Part shown: positions 4,205 to 11,498 of the stretch, piece after piece
How positions within the stretch are numbered: the stretch's first letter is position 1
How the letters are laid out: each line of letters starts with the position of its first letter
Virus record (IMG/VR): IMGVR_UViG_3300023109_000143
Span: 1 to 23,754 of that record
DNA: 23,754 nucleotides
Strand: one strand, 5' to 3'
Origin: a virus
Made by a program: the position numbers and the translations under genes
The notes under the pieces: model-generated
Told to the model about the DNA's origin: nothing
Databases searched by the model: none
Seen by the model: the letters and a program-made list of their open reading frames with translations, nothing else

Positions 4205-5335
4205 ATGTCAGTATTAAATGAAAACAGCAGAAATAAACACTTAACCTCCCTAATGTTTTTAGATCCCGAAGGAGGAGTAGACATTCAGAGGTATGATACT
4301 TTAAAGTATAAACAATTTGATAAACTTACAGATAAGCAGTTAGGTTTCTTTTGGCGCCCAGAAGAGATAGATGTAACTAAAGATAGTAAAGATTTTAGAG
4401 GTTTAACAGAGCATGAGCAGCATATTTTTACTGCAAACTTAAAACGGCAAATCTTACTAGATTCTGTTCAAGGAAGAGCGCCTGTAGAAGCTTTTGGAGG
4501 AATAGTAGGTCTTCCAGAGTTAGAAAATTGGATTTTAACTTGGACTTTTAGTGAATCTATTCACTCTCGTAGCTACACTCATATTATTAGAAATATTTAT
4601 ACTAATCCTAGTATTATATTTGATGAGATGATGAATGTTACTGAGATCACAGACTGCGCCTCTGATATTACTAAGTACTATGATGAGCTTCTAAGATTAA
4701 GCAAACTATATCAATTATTTGGTGAGGGAACCCACACAATTAATGGTGAAAAGTATGTAGTTGATATGTATGAGCTTAAAAAATTATTGTATCTTTGCAT
4801 AGCTAGTGTTAATATCTTAGAAGGTGTTCGTTTCTATGTAAGCTTTGCATGTAGTTGGGCATTTGCCGAACTAAAGAAGATGGAAGGCAACGCTAAGATT
4901 ATTAAACTAATTGCTCGCGATGAAAACTTACATCTTGCCTCCACACAGCAAATGATTAAATTATTACCTAAAGATGATCCTGATTATGCTACTATTATTC
5001 CTGAGTGTGAGGATACTGTTAGAAGTATGTTTACAGAAGCGATGCAGCAGGAAAAACAATGGGCAGAATACTTATTTAAAGATGGTTCAATGATTGGTTT
5101 GAATGCTCAATTACTAAGTGACTACGTAGAGTGGATAACTCATAAAAGACTAGTAGCTGCAGGAGTAAAGCCTGATTTTAGTGTTCCTAGAGCTAACCCT
5201 CTTCCTTGGACTCAAAAATGGATAAGTGGGGCAGAAGTACAAGTAGCCCCTCAAGAAACTGAAATTTCTAGTTATGTTATCGGTGGCACAAAAAAAGATG
5301 TTAGTGATAAATCATTCGAAGGATTTAGTTTATAA
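4205..5335 (+). CDS. nrdB: Ribonucleoside-diphosphate reductase class Ia, beta subunit
   Basis: This 376-aa small subunit holds the di-iron centre and tyrosyl radical that starts catalysis in NrdA. All the key residues are present at a constant offset of two from E. coli NrdB: iron ligands D86, E117, H120, E206, E240 and H243, and the radical tyrosine Y124 in ESIHSRSY. It is therefore a classical Y-radical class Ia enzyme and not a variant lacking the tyrosine. I chose the ATG at 4205 because AAAGGA at 4193-4198 is well placed for it. The in-frame TTG at 4181 would put the start inside nrdA and has no ribosome site. The stop is followed after one base by a tRNA gene, so both probably share one transcript that ends at the hairpin at 5419-5444. 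Confidence 0.97.
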   Translation: MSVLNENSRNKHLTSLMFLDPEGGVDIQRYDTLKYKQFDKLTDKQLGFFWRPEEIDVTKDSKDFRGLTEHEQHIFTANLKRQILLDSVQGRAPVEAFGGIVGLPELENWILTWTFSESIHSRSYTHIIRNIYTNPSIIFDEMMNVTEITDCASDITKYYDELLRLSKLYQLFGEGTHTINGEKYVVDMYELKKLLYLCIASVNILEGVRFYVSFACSWAFAELKKMEGNAKIIKLIARDENLHLASTQQMIKLLPKDDPDYATIIPECEDTVRSMFTEAMQQEKQWAEYLFKDGSMIGLNAQLLSDYVEWITHKRLVAAGVKPDFSVPRANPLPWTQKWISGAEVQVAPQETEISSYVIGGTKKDVSDKSFEGFSL

Positions 5336-5336
5336 A

Positions 5337-5412
5337 GCTCCTATAGCTCAGCTGGTAGAGCAATTGATTTGTAATCAATAGGTCCGCGGTTCGAGTCCGT
5401 GTGGGAGCACCA
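5337..5412 (+). tRNA. tRNA-Thr, anticodon UGU
   Basis: The 76 bases fold into a standard cloverleaf. The acceptor stem is GCTCCTA paired with TGGGAGC, the D stem is GCTC/GAGC, the anticodon stem is ATTGA/TCAAT around the loop TTTGTAA (anticodon TGT at 5370-5372), and the T stem is CGCGG/CCGTG with loop TTCGAGT. Discriminator A and an encoded CCA follow. It reads ACA threonine codons, which suit an AT-rich phage. It begins one base after the nrdB stop and must be cut out of the reductase transcript. Confidence 0.97.
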
Positions 5413-5418
5413 TTAATT

Positions 5419-5444
5419 ATAACCAGAGAGCAATCTCTGGTTAT
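5419..5444 (+). terminator. Rho-independent terminator after nrdA-nrdB-tRNA
   Basis: A perfect 11-bp stem (ATAACCAGAGA with TCTCTGGTTAT) closes a GCAA tetraloop and is followed by the T-rich TTTATTTT. It stops the upstream operon and insulates the small-gene cassette that follows. The stem is partly palindromic, but a T tract is clear only on the + side. Confidence 0.85.
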
Positions 5445-5472
5445 TTTATTTTAGCATTTTGTACCTCTAAGC

Positions 5473-5489
5473 TATGCAAACTGTGCATA
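5473..5489. promoter_or_regulatory. Inverted repeat, possible operator
   Basis: TATGCA and TGCATA flank a 5-base spacer (AACTG), making a 17-bp dyad about 20 bases upstream of the probable promoter of the small-gene cassette. The position fits a repressor or activator site. No A/T-tract suggests termination. Such short dyads can arise by chance, so confidence is low. Confidence 0.3.
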
Positions 5490-5510
5490 CCGGGTTTGAC
5501 ATAATTATAG

Positions 5511-5539
5511 TTGTTTTTTGAGCCTTTTTATTATATACT
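5511..5539 (+). promoter_or_regulatory. Probable sigma70-type promoter of the small-gene cassette
   Basis: TTGTTT (5511-5516) and TATACT (5534-5539) are separated by exactly 17 bases, and an AAGGAG-type ribosome site and ATG (5562) follow. The site lies between a terminator and the first small gene, where a new start is required. A perfect TTGACA at 5496-5501 lies just upstream but has no -10 box at the right distance; it may be part of an activator or overlapping promoter region. This is prediction from consensus only. Confidence 0.55.
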
Positions 5540-5561
5540 ATAAGTATAGAAGGAGAAAAAC

Positions 5562-5723
5562 ATGAAACTTTTAAAAAGACTATTTAGTAAATTAAAACCA
5601 AAAACAGAGCAAGAAAGAATTAATGAGTACCTAGCTCAATCTACTGACCTAGTAGACCTAGAGAGAAGACAAAAGAAATTAATATACGGGAACATGAATC
5701 CTAACTTAAGAGGATGGGTATAA
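5562..5723 (+). CDS. Small DUF3563-like protein, first gene of the cassette
   Basis: This 53-aa ORF has a very basic N-terminus (MKLLKRLFSKLKPK) followed by YLAQSTDLVDLERRQ and an end in NLRGWV. The YLAQS.DL.DLERR pattern resembles the DUF3563 family of small proteobacterial proteins, whose function is unknown. An AAGGAG-type ribosome site lies about 8 bases before the ATG. The stop (TAA at 5721-5723) overlaps the next start in a TAATG, so the two genes are probably translationally coupled. The family call rests on a remembered pattern and not a search. Confidence 0.6.
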   Translation: MKLLKRLFSKLKPKTEQERINEYLAQSTDLVDLERRQKKLIYGNMNPNLRGWV

Positions 5724-5956
5724 TGACACAGCATATATTAATAGCACATAATTTCTCTACTAAAATAATTGAAAACTTAATAGATTCTTTACGAACTTTT
5801 GCACAGTATTATAAACAAAAGCGCATAACTAAACAAACTATAAAAGAGCTATCTAGATTATCAGACTATGACTTAGAAGATATAGGTCTTACCCGAGGCG
5901 ACATTTACCGTGTAGCTCGTTCAGGCTCTAAAATTAAAAATAGGGGGTGGCTATAA
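5723..5956 (+). CDS. DUF1127 (YjiS-like) small basic protein
   Basis: The 77-aa protein ends in the DUF1127 signature, LSDYDLEDIGLTRGDI followed by basic residues, at about residues 47-62. DUF1127 proteins are small, arginine- or lysine-rich proteins abundant in Alphaproteobacteria. At least one, CcaF1 of Rhodobacter sphaeroides, has been reported to bind RNA and affect RNA turnover and stress responses. I chose the ATG at 5723, which overlaps the previous stop and is well placed from AAGAGG at about 5708-5713; the ATG at 5714 is too close to that site. A phage-borne copy could modulate host RNA or metabolism, which is inference. The stop overlaps the next start (TAATG), so coupling continues. 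Confidence 0.8.
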   Translation: MTQHILIAHNFSTKIIENLIDSLRTFAQYYKQKRITKQTIKELSRLSDYDLEDIGLTRGDIYRVARSGSKIKNRGWL

Positions 5957-6138
5957 TGACAGCTTTAGTAACAAACTATATCTTCTCACCCTTGTCGGGT
6001 TTGTGGTCTTCATTCGATCGGTTTACACAGACGATTGGATACTCCAGAGCGGCAGCGGAGCTCGCAAGAATGGGTTACCACGAGGAAGCCAAACGTTGTA
6101 TATTGCAGATTCAAGAAATGCATAACAAAAGGAAATAA
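5956..6138 (+). CDS. Small protein of unknown function, base composition unlike neighbours
   Basis: This is a 60-aa ORF whose middle reads GYSRAAAELARMGYHEEAKR, an Ala/Arg/Glu-rich helix resembling segments found in small proteins encoded near DUF1127 genes. I cannot name a family. The start at 5956 overlaps the DUF1127 stop and follows a good ribosome site (AGGGGG). Bases 5991-6120 are about 48% G+C (63 of 130 counted), far above the surrounding phage sequence, and use codons such as CTC, CGG, TCG and GCG that are rare elsewhere in the window. This suggests recent acquisition, perhaps from the host. Coupling to DUF1127 suggests the two proteins act together. Confidence 0.75.
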   Translation: MTALVTNYIFSPLSGLWSSFDRFTQTIGYSRAAAELARMGYHEEAKRCILQIQEMHNKRK

Positions 6139-6139
6139 A

Positions 6140-6328
6140 ATGACTCCTAGAGAGCAAGCACAAATAGAAGCAGAGAAAACTTTTAACTTGTTTATTATGT
6201 GGAGTAAAAGAGTAACATTATGGTCTATAGTATTTTTATTAATCGTAGTTGTGGGCTGCAACTCTGGTGTTCAAGATAAAGATACATATCCAGGCTATAA
6301 TGGAGAGCAGTATGCTCCAACGATATAA
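6140..6328 (+). CDS. Single-span membrane protein resembling aa3 oxidase subunit IV (or a lipoprotein)
   Basis: The 62-aa protein starts at 6140 behind AAAAGG. The N-terminal part REQAQIEAEKTFNLFIMW followed by one hydrophobic span (about residues 25-39) resembles the alphaproteobacterial aa3-type cytochrome c oxidase subunit IV family (COX4_pro_2), whose typical members carry EQEKTF..F and then one helix. An alternative is a lipoprotein: VVGC at residues 37-40 fits a lipobox, but the 24-residue stretch before the hydrophobic core would be long for a signal peptide. If the first reading is right, it could sit in the host respiratory membrane. It overlaps the next gene by 17 bases. The longer in-frame extension upstream is a shadow of the preceding gene. 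Confidence 0.7.
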   Translation: MTPREQAQIEAEKTFNLFIMWSKRVTLWSIVFLLIVVVGCNSGVQDKDTYPGYNGEQYAPTI

Positions 6329-6485
6329 AAGAATTGTTGACTGGTATTATCACTTAAGACATCAAGGTTGGTGTCTTGGTGTAACGAATACAGGCCCTTG
6401 GTATAGTCGTTACAGTAAGTTTAATTGTATTATATGGGCTTGGCATAACTCAAGTACTCATACTCCTGATGGTAAATACTTGTAG
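6312..6485 (+). CDS. Hypothetical small protein, last gene of the cassette
   Basis: This 57-aa ORF begins MLQRYKRIVDWYYHLRHQGW and is rich in Trp, Tyr and His (five Trp), with two cysteines (C21, C39). There is no signal peptide or membrane span. I do not recognise the family. The ATG at 6312 is chosen because GGAG at 6302-6305 is correctly spaced; longer in-frame starts lie inside the preceding gene with no ribosome site. It overlaps the membrane-protein gene in another frame, so coupled translation is likely. A strong terminator begins ten bases after its stop, making it the cassette's last gene. Confidence 0.65.
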   Translation: MLQRYKRIVDWYYHLRHQGWCLGVTNTGPWYSRYSKFNCIIWAWHNSSTHTPDGKYL

Positions 6486-6494
6486 TATAAAAGT

Positions 6495-6524
6495 AAAAAG
6501 AGTCCAATAAGGGCTCTTTTTTTA
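6495..6524 (+). terminator. Rho-independent terminator ending the small-gene cassette
   Basis: AAAAAGAGTCC pairs with GGGCTCTTTTT (11 bp, one G-T wobble) around an AATAA loop, and the T run continues beyond the stem. Together with the hairpin at 5419-5444 it brackets the five small genes as an independent transcription unit. Confidence 0.88.
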
Positions 6525-6579
6525 TATTATATTAGACTTATGGTTCTTTTTTATATTAGTATTGTGTAAAGGAGATATT

Positions 6580-7026
6580 ATGAGTAGTAAAAGTAAAACT
6601 AAAGGAAGAAGTTTTGAGTACGTAGTTAGAGATCTTTTTTCTAAACATTTTAATAATAAGTTTGAAAGGGTGCCCTTATCAGGCGCATTAGAGTATCTCA
6701 AAGGAGACGTATATTGTCCTTGGCTTCCAAATTTTACATATTGTATAGAGGCTAAACATCACAAAGAAATAAATTGGAATAATTTATTAACAGCTAAAAA
6801 ATCTGCTTTACTATTAGACTTTTGGAAACAAACTATAAGAGAAGCAGATACTATGAAAAAAGAACCACTATTAATATATAAGTGGGATAGAGGTAAAGTA
6901 TACTGTTGCTGGGCCAATGAAGTTGAGGTGCCTAATCAAATAACTGTTAGAGTAGATGACTTATACTTTAAAATGGGTTTATTTGATGAGTGGGTGTTAG
7001 AGGCTGTAAAATTAGAACCTACTTAA
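6580..7026 (+). CDS. PD-(D/E)XK nuclease, Holliday-junction-resolvase-like
   Basis: The 148-aa protein has the arrangement of Hjc/archaeal-type resolvases and related phage nucleases: a GRSFEYVVRDLF helix with E13, then GD (D43), and EAK (E57, K59) as the metal-binding and catalytic residues. Such enzymes cut branched DNA. With the gp46-like ATPase and the exonuclease it would complete a recombination and packaging-repair set. The ATG at 6580 follows AAAGGAG; an in-frame TTG 18 bases upstream has no such site. The gene lies just after a terminator, so it needs its own promoter (candidate in 6525-6570, not convincing). Branch specificity cannot be read from sequence. Confidence 0.75.
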   Translation: MSSKSKTKGRSFEYVVRDLFSKHFNNKFERVPLSGALEYLKGDVYCPWLPNFTYCIEAKHHKEINWNNLLTAKKSALLLDFWKQTIREADTMKKEPLLIYKWDRGKVYCCWANEVEVPNQITVRVDDLYFKMGLFDEWVLEAVKLEPT

Positions 7027-8624: not shown

Positions 8625-8912
8625 ATGGCATTAACACCTCTTCAAGATCGGGTGCTTGTTAGACGAACAGAAACAGAAGAAACTACTTCAGGAGGTATTA
8701 TAATTCCTGAAAGTGCTAAAGAAAAACCTGCAGAAGGTATAGTAGTAGCTTGTGGTAAAGGAATAAGAAAAGATAATGGGGAATTAGTACCCTTATCTGT
8801 ATCTACGGGAGATACTATTTTGTTTGGTAAGTGGTCAGGCACAGAAGTAACTATTGATGGAGAAGATCTTCTAATAGTAAAAGAGTCTGATATTCTAGGT
8901 ATATTACATTAA
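8625..8912 (+). CDS. groES: GroES-type co-chaperonin
   Basis: The 95-aa protein matches the GroES fold along its full length: an N-terminal [10 protein letters not shown] strand, a mobile loop with the GroEL-binding [21 protein letters not shown], and a C-terminal [14 protein letters not shown]. It would cap the host GroEL, since no groEL is present here. In phages such as T4 (gp31) a dedicated co-chaperonin enlarges the cage for the capsid protein; a similar role here is inference. AAGGAG precedes the ATG. It sits between thyX and glutaredoxin in a tight operon. Confidence 0.97.
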
Positions 8913-9741: not shown

Positions 9742-10110
9742 TTATTTTTTATCTGTACTAGTTTTTGATTTTGAATATGCCTGAGCACCAAAGAATGCAG
9801 CAACTAGTCCGGCAATAGCTACAAAATAAGTAGGCGCTATATCTCCTATTAACTGTGCAGCATCTTTTACTCCTAAAAAAGAAGTAGCTAATATTAAGAT
9901 AGGATACAGTAGCATACCCCAAAGAGCAAACCAGGCCATAGCTCTTATTTGATCTTCTTTTTTATCTTCGTTTTCTTGCATATTACGTTTATGTTCAAAT
10001 TCTGCTATTTCTTTTGCACGAGACATTTCTTCGTCTGTGATTATACCATCTCCATCTGCGTCTAGTTCCGCAAAAATAGAATCAGGTTGCAGTGTTTTTG
10101 CAGCTGCCAT
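9742..10110 (-). CDS. EF-hand protein with two membrane spans
   Basis: The 122-aa protein has a canonical 12-residue EF-hand loop at residues 17-28 (DADGDGIITDEE) with D17, D19, D21, G22, I24 and E28 in the right places. A charged helix follows, then two hydrophobic spans (about 54-76 and 91-112) and a Ser/Lys-rich tail. The loop should bind calcium. I do not know its role. The size, topology and position directly upstream of the holin suggest a holin, antiholin or other lysis-linked membrane protein whose state could depend on Ca2+, which is abundant in seawater. A good AAGGAG lies before the ATG. Confidence 0.85.
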   Translation of the reverse strand: MAAAKTLQPDSIFAELDADGDGIITDEEMSRAKEIAEFEHKRNMQENEDKKEDQIRAMAWFALWGMLLYPILILATSFLGVKDAAQLIGDIAPTYFVAIAGLVAAFFGAQAYSKSKTSTDKK

Positions 10111-10846: not shown

Positions 10847-11197
10847 TTAATCCCCTTCTAATAGTGTTTCATAATAAATTATTATTTCTTTTTGTTGTTT
10901 TATATATCTAACAAGATCTTGAGTATTTAGAGCTAACTTTTCGTAATCTCTAACATCTAGAGCTATAAAAACTACTTCTCCTTCTAAAGATCTCATTTCT
11001 GCTAAAAACTGTTCTAAATTATTTTCATTTATAACTTTAAAGTTTATAGGATAGGTCTCCACTGCTTTAGGAGACTCTTGAAAAATAATTGGAGTTTTTA
11101 TCTCTGTCTCAATTACTTCTATTTCTCTAGGTATTATACCACAACTAGTCACTAGTAAAAGAGGTAATATCATTGAACAATTCATTAGTCGCATCAT
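10847..11197 (-). CDS. Outer-membrane spanin-like lipoprotein (Rz1-type)
   Basis: The 116-aa protein has a short signal peptide with lipobox VTSC, giving a lipidated C19 after MMRLMNCSMILPLLL. The mature part is about 98 residues, longer than lambda Rz1 and without its proline-rich core. Its first 53 bases overlap the end of the coiled-coil membrane protein gene in a different frame. That arrangement (inner-membrane coiled coil followed by an overlapping lipoprotein) is the hallmark of two-component spanins, which fuse inner and outer membranes at the end of lysis. Assignment is by architecture and not sequence similarity. It implies a Gram-negative host. Confidence 0.72.
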   Translation of the reverse strand: MMRLMNCSMILPLLLVTSCGIIPREIEVIETEIKTPIIFQESPKAVETYPINFKVINENNLEQFLAEMRSLEGEVVFIALDVRDYEKLALNTQDLVRYIKQQKEIIIYYETLLEGD

Positions 11198-11498
11198 TTA
11201 TCTTCTTTTCTAATATTTCTGGTTTAGACTTTGCTATCTTAGTAAGATCATGTTTAGTAAGTGTCTTTCGTAAACTATCTATAGCAGTTTCTTGTGCTGT
11301 TAAAGCTTTTTGTAACTTTGAATTTTCTTCCACAGAAGTTGAAAAACTTTTTTCCATTTCTAATATGGTCGTTTTTTGACGTTCATAAACTGCTTCTATC
11401 TTCACTAGATTCTCTTTTAAGACGTTATTTTGCCAAAATAAAAAACCTGAAGCACTAAGACTAGCTAACAAAAATCCAAATAAAACTTTTGAAAACAT
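11145..11498 (-). CDS. Inner-membrane spanin-like protein (Rz-type)
   Basis: The 117-aa protein has one N-terminal membrane anchor (about residues 4-23, VLFGFLLASLSASGFLFW). A long coiled-coil-prone periplasmic helix follows to about residue 90, and the C-terminal part is charged. This is the i-spanin plan. Its ATG overlaps the stop of the fibre-like gene (TAATG at 11500-11496), so translation is probably coupled. Its 3' end overlaps the lipoprotein gene by 53 bases. The pair would span the periplasm and destroy the outer membrane after holin and endolysin action. Confidence 0.72.
   Translation of the reverse strand: MFSKVLFGFLLASLSASGFLFWQNNVLKENLVKIEAVYERQKTTILEMEKSFSTSVEENSKLQKALTAQETAIDSLRKTLTKHDLTKIAKSKPEILEKKINDATNELFNDITSFTSD

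Follow-up and report, generated by a model that had tools for sequence, protein, structure and literature searches.

What kind of unit is formed by five very small genes (g1–g5) that lie in an uncultured phage between nrdB and a tRNA-Thr gene on one side and a PDDEXK nuclease gene on the other, and on what part of the host would it act? The window analysed here is the whole virus record, 23,754 bases long. A sequence-only reading had described the five genes as a terminator-bracketed moron with a fixed gene order and a host-physiology content. The features of the locus are as follows.

5337–5412, plus strand: tRNA-Thr (TGT) between nrdB and the cassette, found by ARAGORN and Rfam.
5419–5444, plus strand: terminator-like hairpin upstream of the cassette, kept in five records.
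5473–5489, no strand: inverted repeat TATGCA-N5-TGCATA, a possible operator to judge from the alignment.
5511–5539, plus strand: candidate sigma70-like promoter TTGTTT-17-TATACT (TATACT at 5534–5539), a weak match conserved in the compared records.
5562–5723, plus strand: g1, 53 aa, DUF3563 (Pfam), with the canonical C-terminal tail NPNLRGWV.
5723–5956, plus strand: g2, 77 aa, DUF1127 (Pfam), with the degraded tail NRGWL.
5956–6138, plus strand: g3, 60 aa, a two-helix protein as predicted by AlphaFold2, conserved partner of g2.
6138–6140, plus strand: g3/g4 boundary, the site of 814 extra bases in the close relative L002.
6140–6328, plus strand: g4, 62 aa, with a helix like that of aa3 cytochrome oxidase subunit IV, a conserved Cys and a YNGEQYxP tail.
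6312–6485, plus strand: g5, 57 aa, Trp-rich, without a family.
6495–6521, plus strand: terminator-like hairpin at the end of the cassette, identical in five records.

All five open reading frames are present with the sizes first proposed, and the substitution pattern relative to related records identifies them as real coding genes, least clearly for g5. The differences between the window and L004 by codon position are 5/4/10 for g1, 8/8/22 for g2, 2/1/8 for g3, 2/2/11 for g4 and 8/3/10 for g5. The genes had been described as joined by overlaps throughout. This holds for g1/g2 and g2/g3 (TAATG in both) and for g4/g5 (17 bases), but g3 and g4 are separated as TAA-A-ATG, so that one of the four junctions differs from that description.

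Pfam confirms g1 as DUF3563-like (36.3 bits, cut-off 26.9) and g2 as a DUF1127 protein (44.6 bits, cut-off 23.3), both as initially read, and has no family for g3 and none near its cut-off for g5. PHROGs assigns g2 to a family of unknown function (6.3e-9), matches g4 weakly (0.087 and above) and has no match for g1, g3 and g5. NCBIfam gave a single match far below its cut-off and PADLOC a single weak one (E 0.034); the Rfam scan of positions 5200–6700 returned nothing but the tRNA above the gathering score, and the DNA-level search against annotated phages gave no match.

The regulatory signals were compared in five records (i.e. the window, L001, L002, L004 and L005). Both bracketing hairpins that had been proposed as terminators are retained in all of them, and two terminator-like sites per 3 kb are no excess over shuffled sequences (1.4 +/- 1.2). 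The arms of the inverted repeat are the same in 5/5 records, with a spacer that deviates in L004 alone. The proposed promoter is there and conserved, but it matches only 8 of the 12 consensus bases and is absent from the promoter-scan hits.

We then examined how far the five genes travel together. Viral contigs were scanned for each gene, which yielded 13 relatives of g2, 11 of g5, nine of g1, 114 of g3 (80 kept) and 88 of g4 (80 kept). The 183 loci compared (172 viral, the window, six from named phages and four from genome contigs) were grouped by shared 200-mers into 44 clusters. A cassette gene was detected by tblastn in 35 clusters; the remaining nine consist of named phages and genome contigs outside that tblastn. 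With one representative counted per cluster, the DUF1127 gene (g2) is found upstream of g3 in all 24 clusters where the two co-occur, and in the 15 clusters with both g3 and g4 the latter always comes downstream. A universal order is contradicted by phage Melnitz, in which g3 precedes the DUF1127 gene, by seven clusters with g4 but neither g2 nor g3, and by eight with g2 and g3 but without g4 or g5. Other clusters contain g1 alone (two), g3 alone (one) or g1 with g3 (one). Some of these incomplete clusters stop at a contig edge; L140 (g4 without g2 and g3) and L009 keep about 10 kb on each side.

The complete set of five genes was found only in the window group, six closely related records that include the window. 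Within this group L001 is closest to the window in g1–g5, and L002 and L003 have two more genes (pseudoazurin and DoxX-like) in the 814 bases between g3 and g4. A fixed five-gene system is rejected, since gene sets vary among relatives, including at the same site, and the fixed order suggested earlier fails with it. The cassette represents one configuration of a variable island that occurs in quite different uncultured phages. The genes of the island are drawn from a common pool and preferentially arranged with DUF1127 and/or DUF3563 first, followed by g3, a variable part, g4 and a second variable part.

Relatives with the same site were located via the PDDEXK and exonuclease genes. The site holds DUF1127–g3–F21 in L195, F16-like–DUF1127–DUF3563–g3 in L196, DUF1127–g3 in L197, and DUF1127–DUF3563 type–short ORF–g3 in L203. 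L199 has an F16-like gene, a protein ending in NIKGWIK that has no Pfam match, and g3, preceded by further genes. The F16 and F21 names and the g3 of L195 were assigned by eye; DUF1127 and DUF3563 were profile-tested, except that the DUF3563-type protein of L203, which matches nothing in Pfam at 0.01, takes its name from its resemblance to g1. The site is empty in L202, where about 107 bases with one hairpin separate the nrdB and PDDEXK matches; L202 also has an F5-like gene at another place. The seven relatives scanned for a tRNA have none.

Like phage morons, the cassette has terminator-like hairpins on both sides, is cargo-like and variable at a fixed site, and is absent from that site in one relative (L202), although loss there may replace gain. 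It differs from morons in that its contents exchange within the unit. Of the moron originally proposed, the terminator-like hairpins and a site that varies and is empty in one relative are retained, but not the fixed gene set; 'moron-like cargo' is a fair label.

To chart the contents of the island, genes were called with a simple caller and grouped into families by single linkage in 36 regions, one for each of the 35 clusters and one for the window; the window group accounts for three of them. Of these 36 regions, 18 encode a pseudoazurin, a cytochrome c or an ATP synthase c: pseudoazurin-like genes in 10, ATP synthase c-like genes in six and cytochrome c genes in two; DoxX-like genes occur in eight. 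Family tests were run on representatives. Pseudoazurins match Copper-bind (7e-16 and 1.9e-17) and PDB pseudoazurins (8e-25), and the cytochromes match Cytochrom_C (5.8e-12 and 2.6e-12). The ATP synthase c protein matches ATP-synt_C (1.9e-10) and, as best PDB chain, 5dn6_J (1e-15), which we take to be from Paracoccus; it keeps the AEALG stretch and has a loop five residues shorter than in 5dn6_J. The DoxX-like assignment is weak (0.0036 and below the cut-off in L002; no match at 0.001 in L164). Family F2, which looked like a phasin by eye, gained no support from Pfam and is left unnamed for that reason.

The respiratory-membrane theme and the host-physiology character that had been read into the cassette are thereby supported from the islands of other phages. 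In these relatives the island brings homologues of host metabolic genes into the phage genome, the hallmark of auxiliary metabolic genes. The window copy and L001 have no electron carriers, and the only respiratory candidate in the window is g4. The pseudoazurins of L002 and L164 are 92% identical, while their g3 proteins belong to separate deep branches of the g3 tree. Together with the same-site variants and the empty L202, this supports exchange, which apparently involves single genes or small sets.

Searches of 50,697 annotated phage records returned nothing for the cytochrome c and the ATP synthase c; for the L002 pseudoazurin, cyanophage plastocyanins (27–30% identity) were the sole matches at E ≤ 1e-3. 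Relatives of the pseudoazurin are present in 40 of the 289 genomes searched from G003's class, taken as Alphaproteobacteria because G003 is a Pelagibacteraceae genome (best identity 66%), and at 76% in a MAG filed as Rhodobacteraceae that also has phage-like contigs. A limited search of published, mainly open-access papers turned up no phage with a pseudoazurin or ATP synthase c gene.

Photosynthesis genes are a well-known feature of the phages that infect photosynthetic cyanobacteria. The island resembles these genes in providing phage-borne electron carriers, and several of its carrier phages are T4-like with Hsp20 beside the island; it differs in that its genes are respiratory (i.e. pseudoazurin, cytochrome c, oxidase subunit IV-like and ATP synthase c). 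Cyanophage electron-transport genes (e.g. plastocyanin petE of S-SM2) are presumed to sustain electron flow (PMC5082946). A study of viral nitrogen-cycle genes reports that its phages showed no electron carriers, cytochromes being one example (PMC8115048). As far as our limited searches show, the electron carriers described here are new for phages of heterotrophs.

The g4 protein had been read as oxidase-subunit-IV-like; it scores 21.9 bits against COX4_pro_2 (PF07835), 0.1 under the cut-off of 22. The same profile matches 10 of 12 g4 proteins, the window's included (E ≤ 0.01; best 7e-7), and the relative in L169 is above the cut-off (29.8 against 22). The top two PDB chains for g4 are oxidase chains, 5weh_D and 1m56_D, at E of about 0.6; 5weh_D is named aa3 subunit IV and is presumably from Rhodobacter. 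A g4 profile found a match (E ≤ 0.01) in only one of 142 cellular genomes, namely a short ORF that has EKTFEGFIKWS in common with the L169 protein and is read as subunit IV; no oxidase genes were seen among its neighbours. Phage g4 shares with aa3-type cytochrome c oxidase subunit IV an EKTFxxFIxW-type core and a single predicted helix, and AlphaFold2 gives only helices, but past the helix it has an extra conserved Cys and the YNGEQYxP tail.

These additions, present in 47/47 full-length distinct g4 proteins, raise the alternative that g4 is a small lipoprotein (e.g. for superinfection exclusion) or another membrane protein, with a chance likeness to the oxidase subunit. The lipobox [LVI][ASTVI][GAS]C fits 44 of the 47, the PDB match is poor, and a weak match to an Rz-like spanin (E 0.26) would suit such a protein. 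The recurrence of COX4_pro_2 across g4 proteins and the respiratory genes near g4 in many regions argue against it, and we consider this alternative unlikely.

Our preferred reading is that the cassette belongs to an accessory module that targets the respiratory membrane of the host and has the tailed protein and g3 as its phage-specific core, and we judge this reading evenly poised between right and wrong. It is supported by the conserved gene order (24/24 and 15/15), the respiratory cargo in half of the mapped regions and the COX4_pro_2 matches. Against it stand the two copies without electron carriers (the window and L001), the sub-threshold family score of g4 with its poor PDB E-value and single match in 142 genomes, the lipoprotein signal, and the exceptions to the gene order. 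An ordinary run of small early genes with unrelated functions, joined by transcription only, would account for g3 and g5 having no known function; the preferred order and the recurring respiratory content across different phages make such a run distinctly improbable.

The proposed core of the module involves a feature of g1 and g2 that the sequence-only reading missed while naming their families correctly. Although their domains belong to different Pfam families, g1 and most g2 proteins end in the same tail, N-x-N-L-[R/K]-G-W-V, defined here to admit Met or Ile in place of Leu and Ser in place of Trp. This shared tail is a new observation of the present analysis. It occurs on 46 of 53 distinct g2 proteins; the seven without it are four from the window group, one miscalled ORF, and L097 and L098 (NQNLQGWV). 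Among the distinct g1 proteins it is present on four of five, L107 being the exception. In the window the tail is canonical on g1 and degraded on g2. Both domains occur together in three backgrounds, i.e. the window group, L196 and L203, where the DUF3563-type protein bears the tail (NPNLRGWV, NANLRGWI and RNLKGWV, respectively) and the DUF1127 protein lacks it or, in the window group, has a degraded form (NRGWL or NREGL). Further variants are NTNLKGWI (L195), SKAKGWV (L197) and the NIKGWIK of L199.

Since 52 of the 56 distinct tails overlap the next gene as TAATG and their R/K-G codons are mostly purine-rich, the tail could be merely the ribosome-binding site of that gene, and the alteration of the g2 tail to NREGL in L004 and L005 fits this explanation. 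Several findings make it improbable. The Asn, Gly and Val codons of the 56 tails vary synonymously, and 208 other ORFs with a TAATG overlap have no tail; weight is placed only on this codon spread and this control, as the motif itself was the inclusion criterion for the tail set. L104 has the tail but no overlap, and its Shine-Dalgarno-like stretch comes downstream of the stop codon instead. Furthermore, the tail sits on the DUF3563-type protein where both domains are present. None of the 289 genomes of G003's class contains a DNA pattern written for the tail, with Leu coded as YTN, Arg only as AGR, Lys allowed and TAA as the stop.

The second element of the proposed core, g3, yielded a low-confidence AlphaFold2 model with helices only (pLDDT 73, pTM 0.35). 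Among annotated phages the window's g3 matches only four Melnitz-type records, and one divergent g3 protein has no match at E ≤ 1. The Methylophilales phage Melnitz resembles the cassette in that its genes 45–46, a g3-like and a DUF1127 gene, adjoin; it differs in their reversed order, and they are annotated as hypothetical and DUF1127. A genome scan gave four g3 hits, of which L180 and L181 are phage-contig-like by gene content and L183 was read as a Pelagibacteraceae chromosome locus. Only two of the 289 genomes have a g3 match: in G003 (9.7e-8) it is a 100-aa ORF whose neighbours, by eye, form a polyhydroxybutyrate locus, and in G130 (7.4e-4) it sits within a 413-aa open frame.

Small cellular DUF1127 proteins (e.g. 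CcaF1, YjiS and the Agrobacterium SDPs) belong to the same Pfam family as g2, which is above its cut-off, whereas most phage versions are tailed and adjoin g3. According to three papers, DUF1127 proteins bind PhoR (PMC12501420), bind RNA (PMC10253847) and are located at the inner membrane (PMC11707872). This literature and the respiratory cargo together point to the inner membrane and energy metabolism as the target. A regulatory takeover of host RNA or phosphate control is another reading of the PhoR and RNA binding: g2 would mimic cellular DUF1127 proteins, and the respiratory neighbours would be unrelated cargo sharing the insertion site. It would agree with DUF1127-like genes in the isolated phages SIO1, P12053L, CRP-7 and phiM19 (tblastn E 6e-6 to 6e-2), and with the result that a g4 relative had no match at E ≤ 1 in the annotated phage collection. 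Roseophages and Sinorhizobium phages are among the isolates with such DUF1127-like genes, in part only at weak E-values. However, the position of g4 downstream of g3 in every cluster with both does not look like that of random cargo, and we assign this reading a low probability.

If the respiratory module is the right reading, the cassette would be an abridged form of an exchangeable accessory island, probably expressed as one early operon. The g4 protein would span the inner membrane with one helix, with its Cys and YNGEQYxP tail outside, and would associate with or replace the aa3 oxidase's subunit IV; this might maintain or redirect electron flow and proton-motive force as host gene expression drops. 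The g1/g2 proteins with g3 may form a membrane-associated regulatory pair. In this pair the shared C-terminal tail would attach a small basic domain to g3 or to a shared target in the host, and the DUF1127 portion may act on sensor kinases or RNA like its cellular relatives.

A more specific version, which we put forward tentatively and think more probably wrong than right, is a phage-specific two-part adaptor: a portable docking tail, present on a single protein in each cassette and shuffled between the unrelated DUF1127 and DUF3563 domains, would together with g3 bring host-type small regulators to the respiratory membrane, while exchangeable oxidase, electron-carrier and ATP-synthase parts beside it (including the c subunit with its shortened polar loop) would rewire oxidative phosphorylation. 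If true, heterotroph phages would carry an oxidative phosphorylation kit as the counterpart of cyanophage photosynthesis genes, which would suggest that control of host energy is general, and several tiny 'unknown' genes would gain testable functions. The shared tail would give a starting point for finding a partner that DUF1127 and DUF3563 proteins have in common.

Concerning the hosts, we tentatively take them to be mostly alphaproteobacteria; against this, Melnitz infects a Methylophilales bacterium. The carrier phages are of different kinds: among 22 virus records, four have a T4-type gp23 and four others, all from the window group, have DNA_pol_A; the other 14 have neither, which carries little weight as the records are fragments. 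In several T4-like carriers, L039, L076 and L096 among them, the island follows gp45, the clamp loader, RegA and Hsp20 (in whole or in part) and precedes DNA polymerase B. L009, which has gp23, shows different island neighbours.

Ahead of the cassette genes and upstream of their putative sigma70-like promoter, we find an inverted repeat in the sequence and in the alignment of five records:

window 5473–5489, inverted repeat TATGCA-N5-TGCATA

The arms are unchanged in all five records and the spacer differs in one; judged from its sequence, the repeat is a possible operator.

Genes resembling g3 (the predicted two-helix partner of g2) and the DUF1127 gene g2 also occur on genome contigs:

L183 4046–4348, small g3-like protein in a Pelagibacteraceae genome
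L180 1084–1326, second DUF1127-like gene, 3′ of g3 (by eye)

The surroundings of the former look like a polyhydroxybutyrate locus. The L180 contig is filed under Flavobacteriales and reads as phage-like.

Genes in relatives include the following:

L140 9476–9835 and relatives, F5, a membrane gene family without assigned function
L076 10170–10391, phage ATP synthase c homologue
L009 10400–10624, phage ATP synthase c homologue
L023 7262–8317, PnrA/BMP-type substrate-binding protein (family match 8e-52)

In L140 and relatives, the C-terminal tail of F5 (YNGR..GEHE) is similar to that of g4 (YNGEQY). Sequence and PDB comparison of the L076 homologue reveals a loop five residues shorter than in its best PDB match. 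The contig with the PnrA/BMP-type gene is T4-like and 177 kb long, and the gene lies inside its island.

Three further features lie in the window:

8625–8912, GroES-like gene (by eye)
9742–10110, minus strand, protein of membrane type (by eye), its N-terminus EF-hand-like
10847–11498, minus strand, two overlapping genes, one for a membrane protein with a coiled coil, the other for a lipoprotein-like protein (by eye)

On one side of the GroES-like gene is a gene that by eye resembles thyX, on the other a glutaredoxin-like one (6.5e-4); both this match and the EF-hand-like one (2.6e-4) are below cut-off. Pfam gives no family above cut-off for the overlapping pair, which by eye looks like Rz/Rz1-type spanins.
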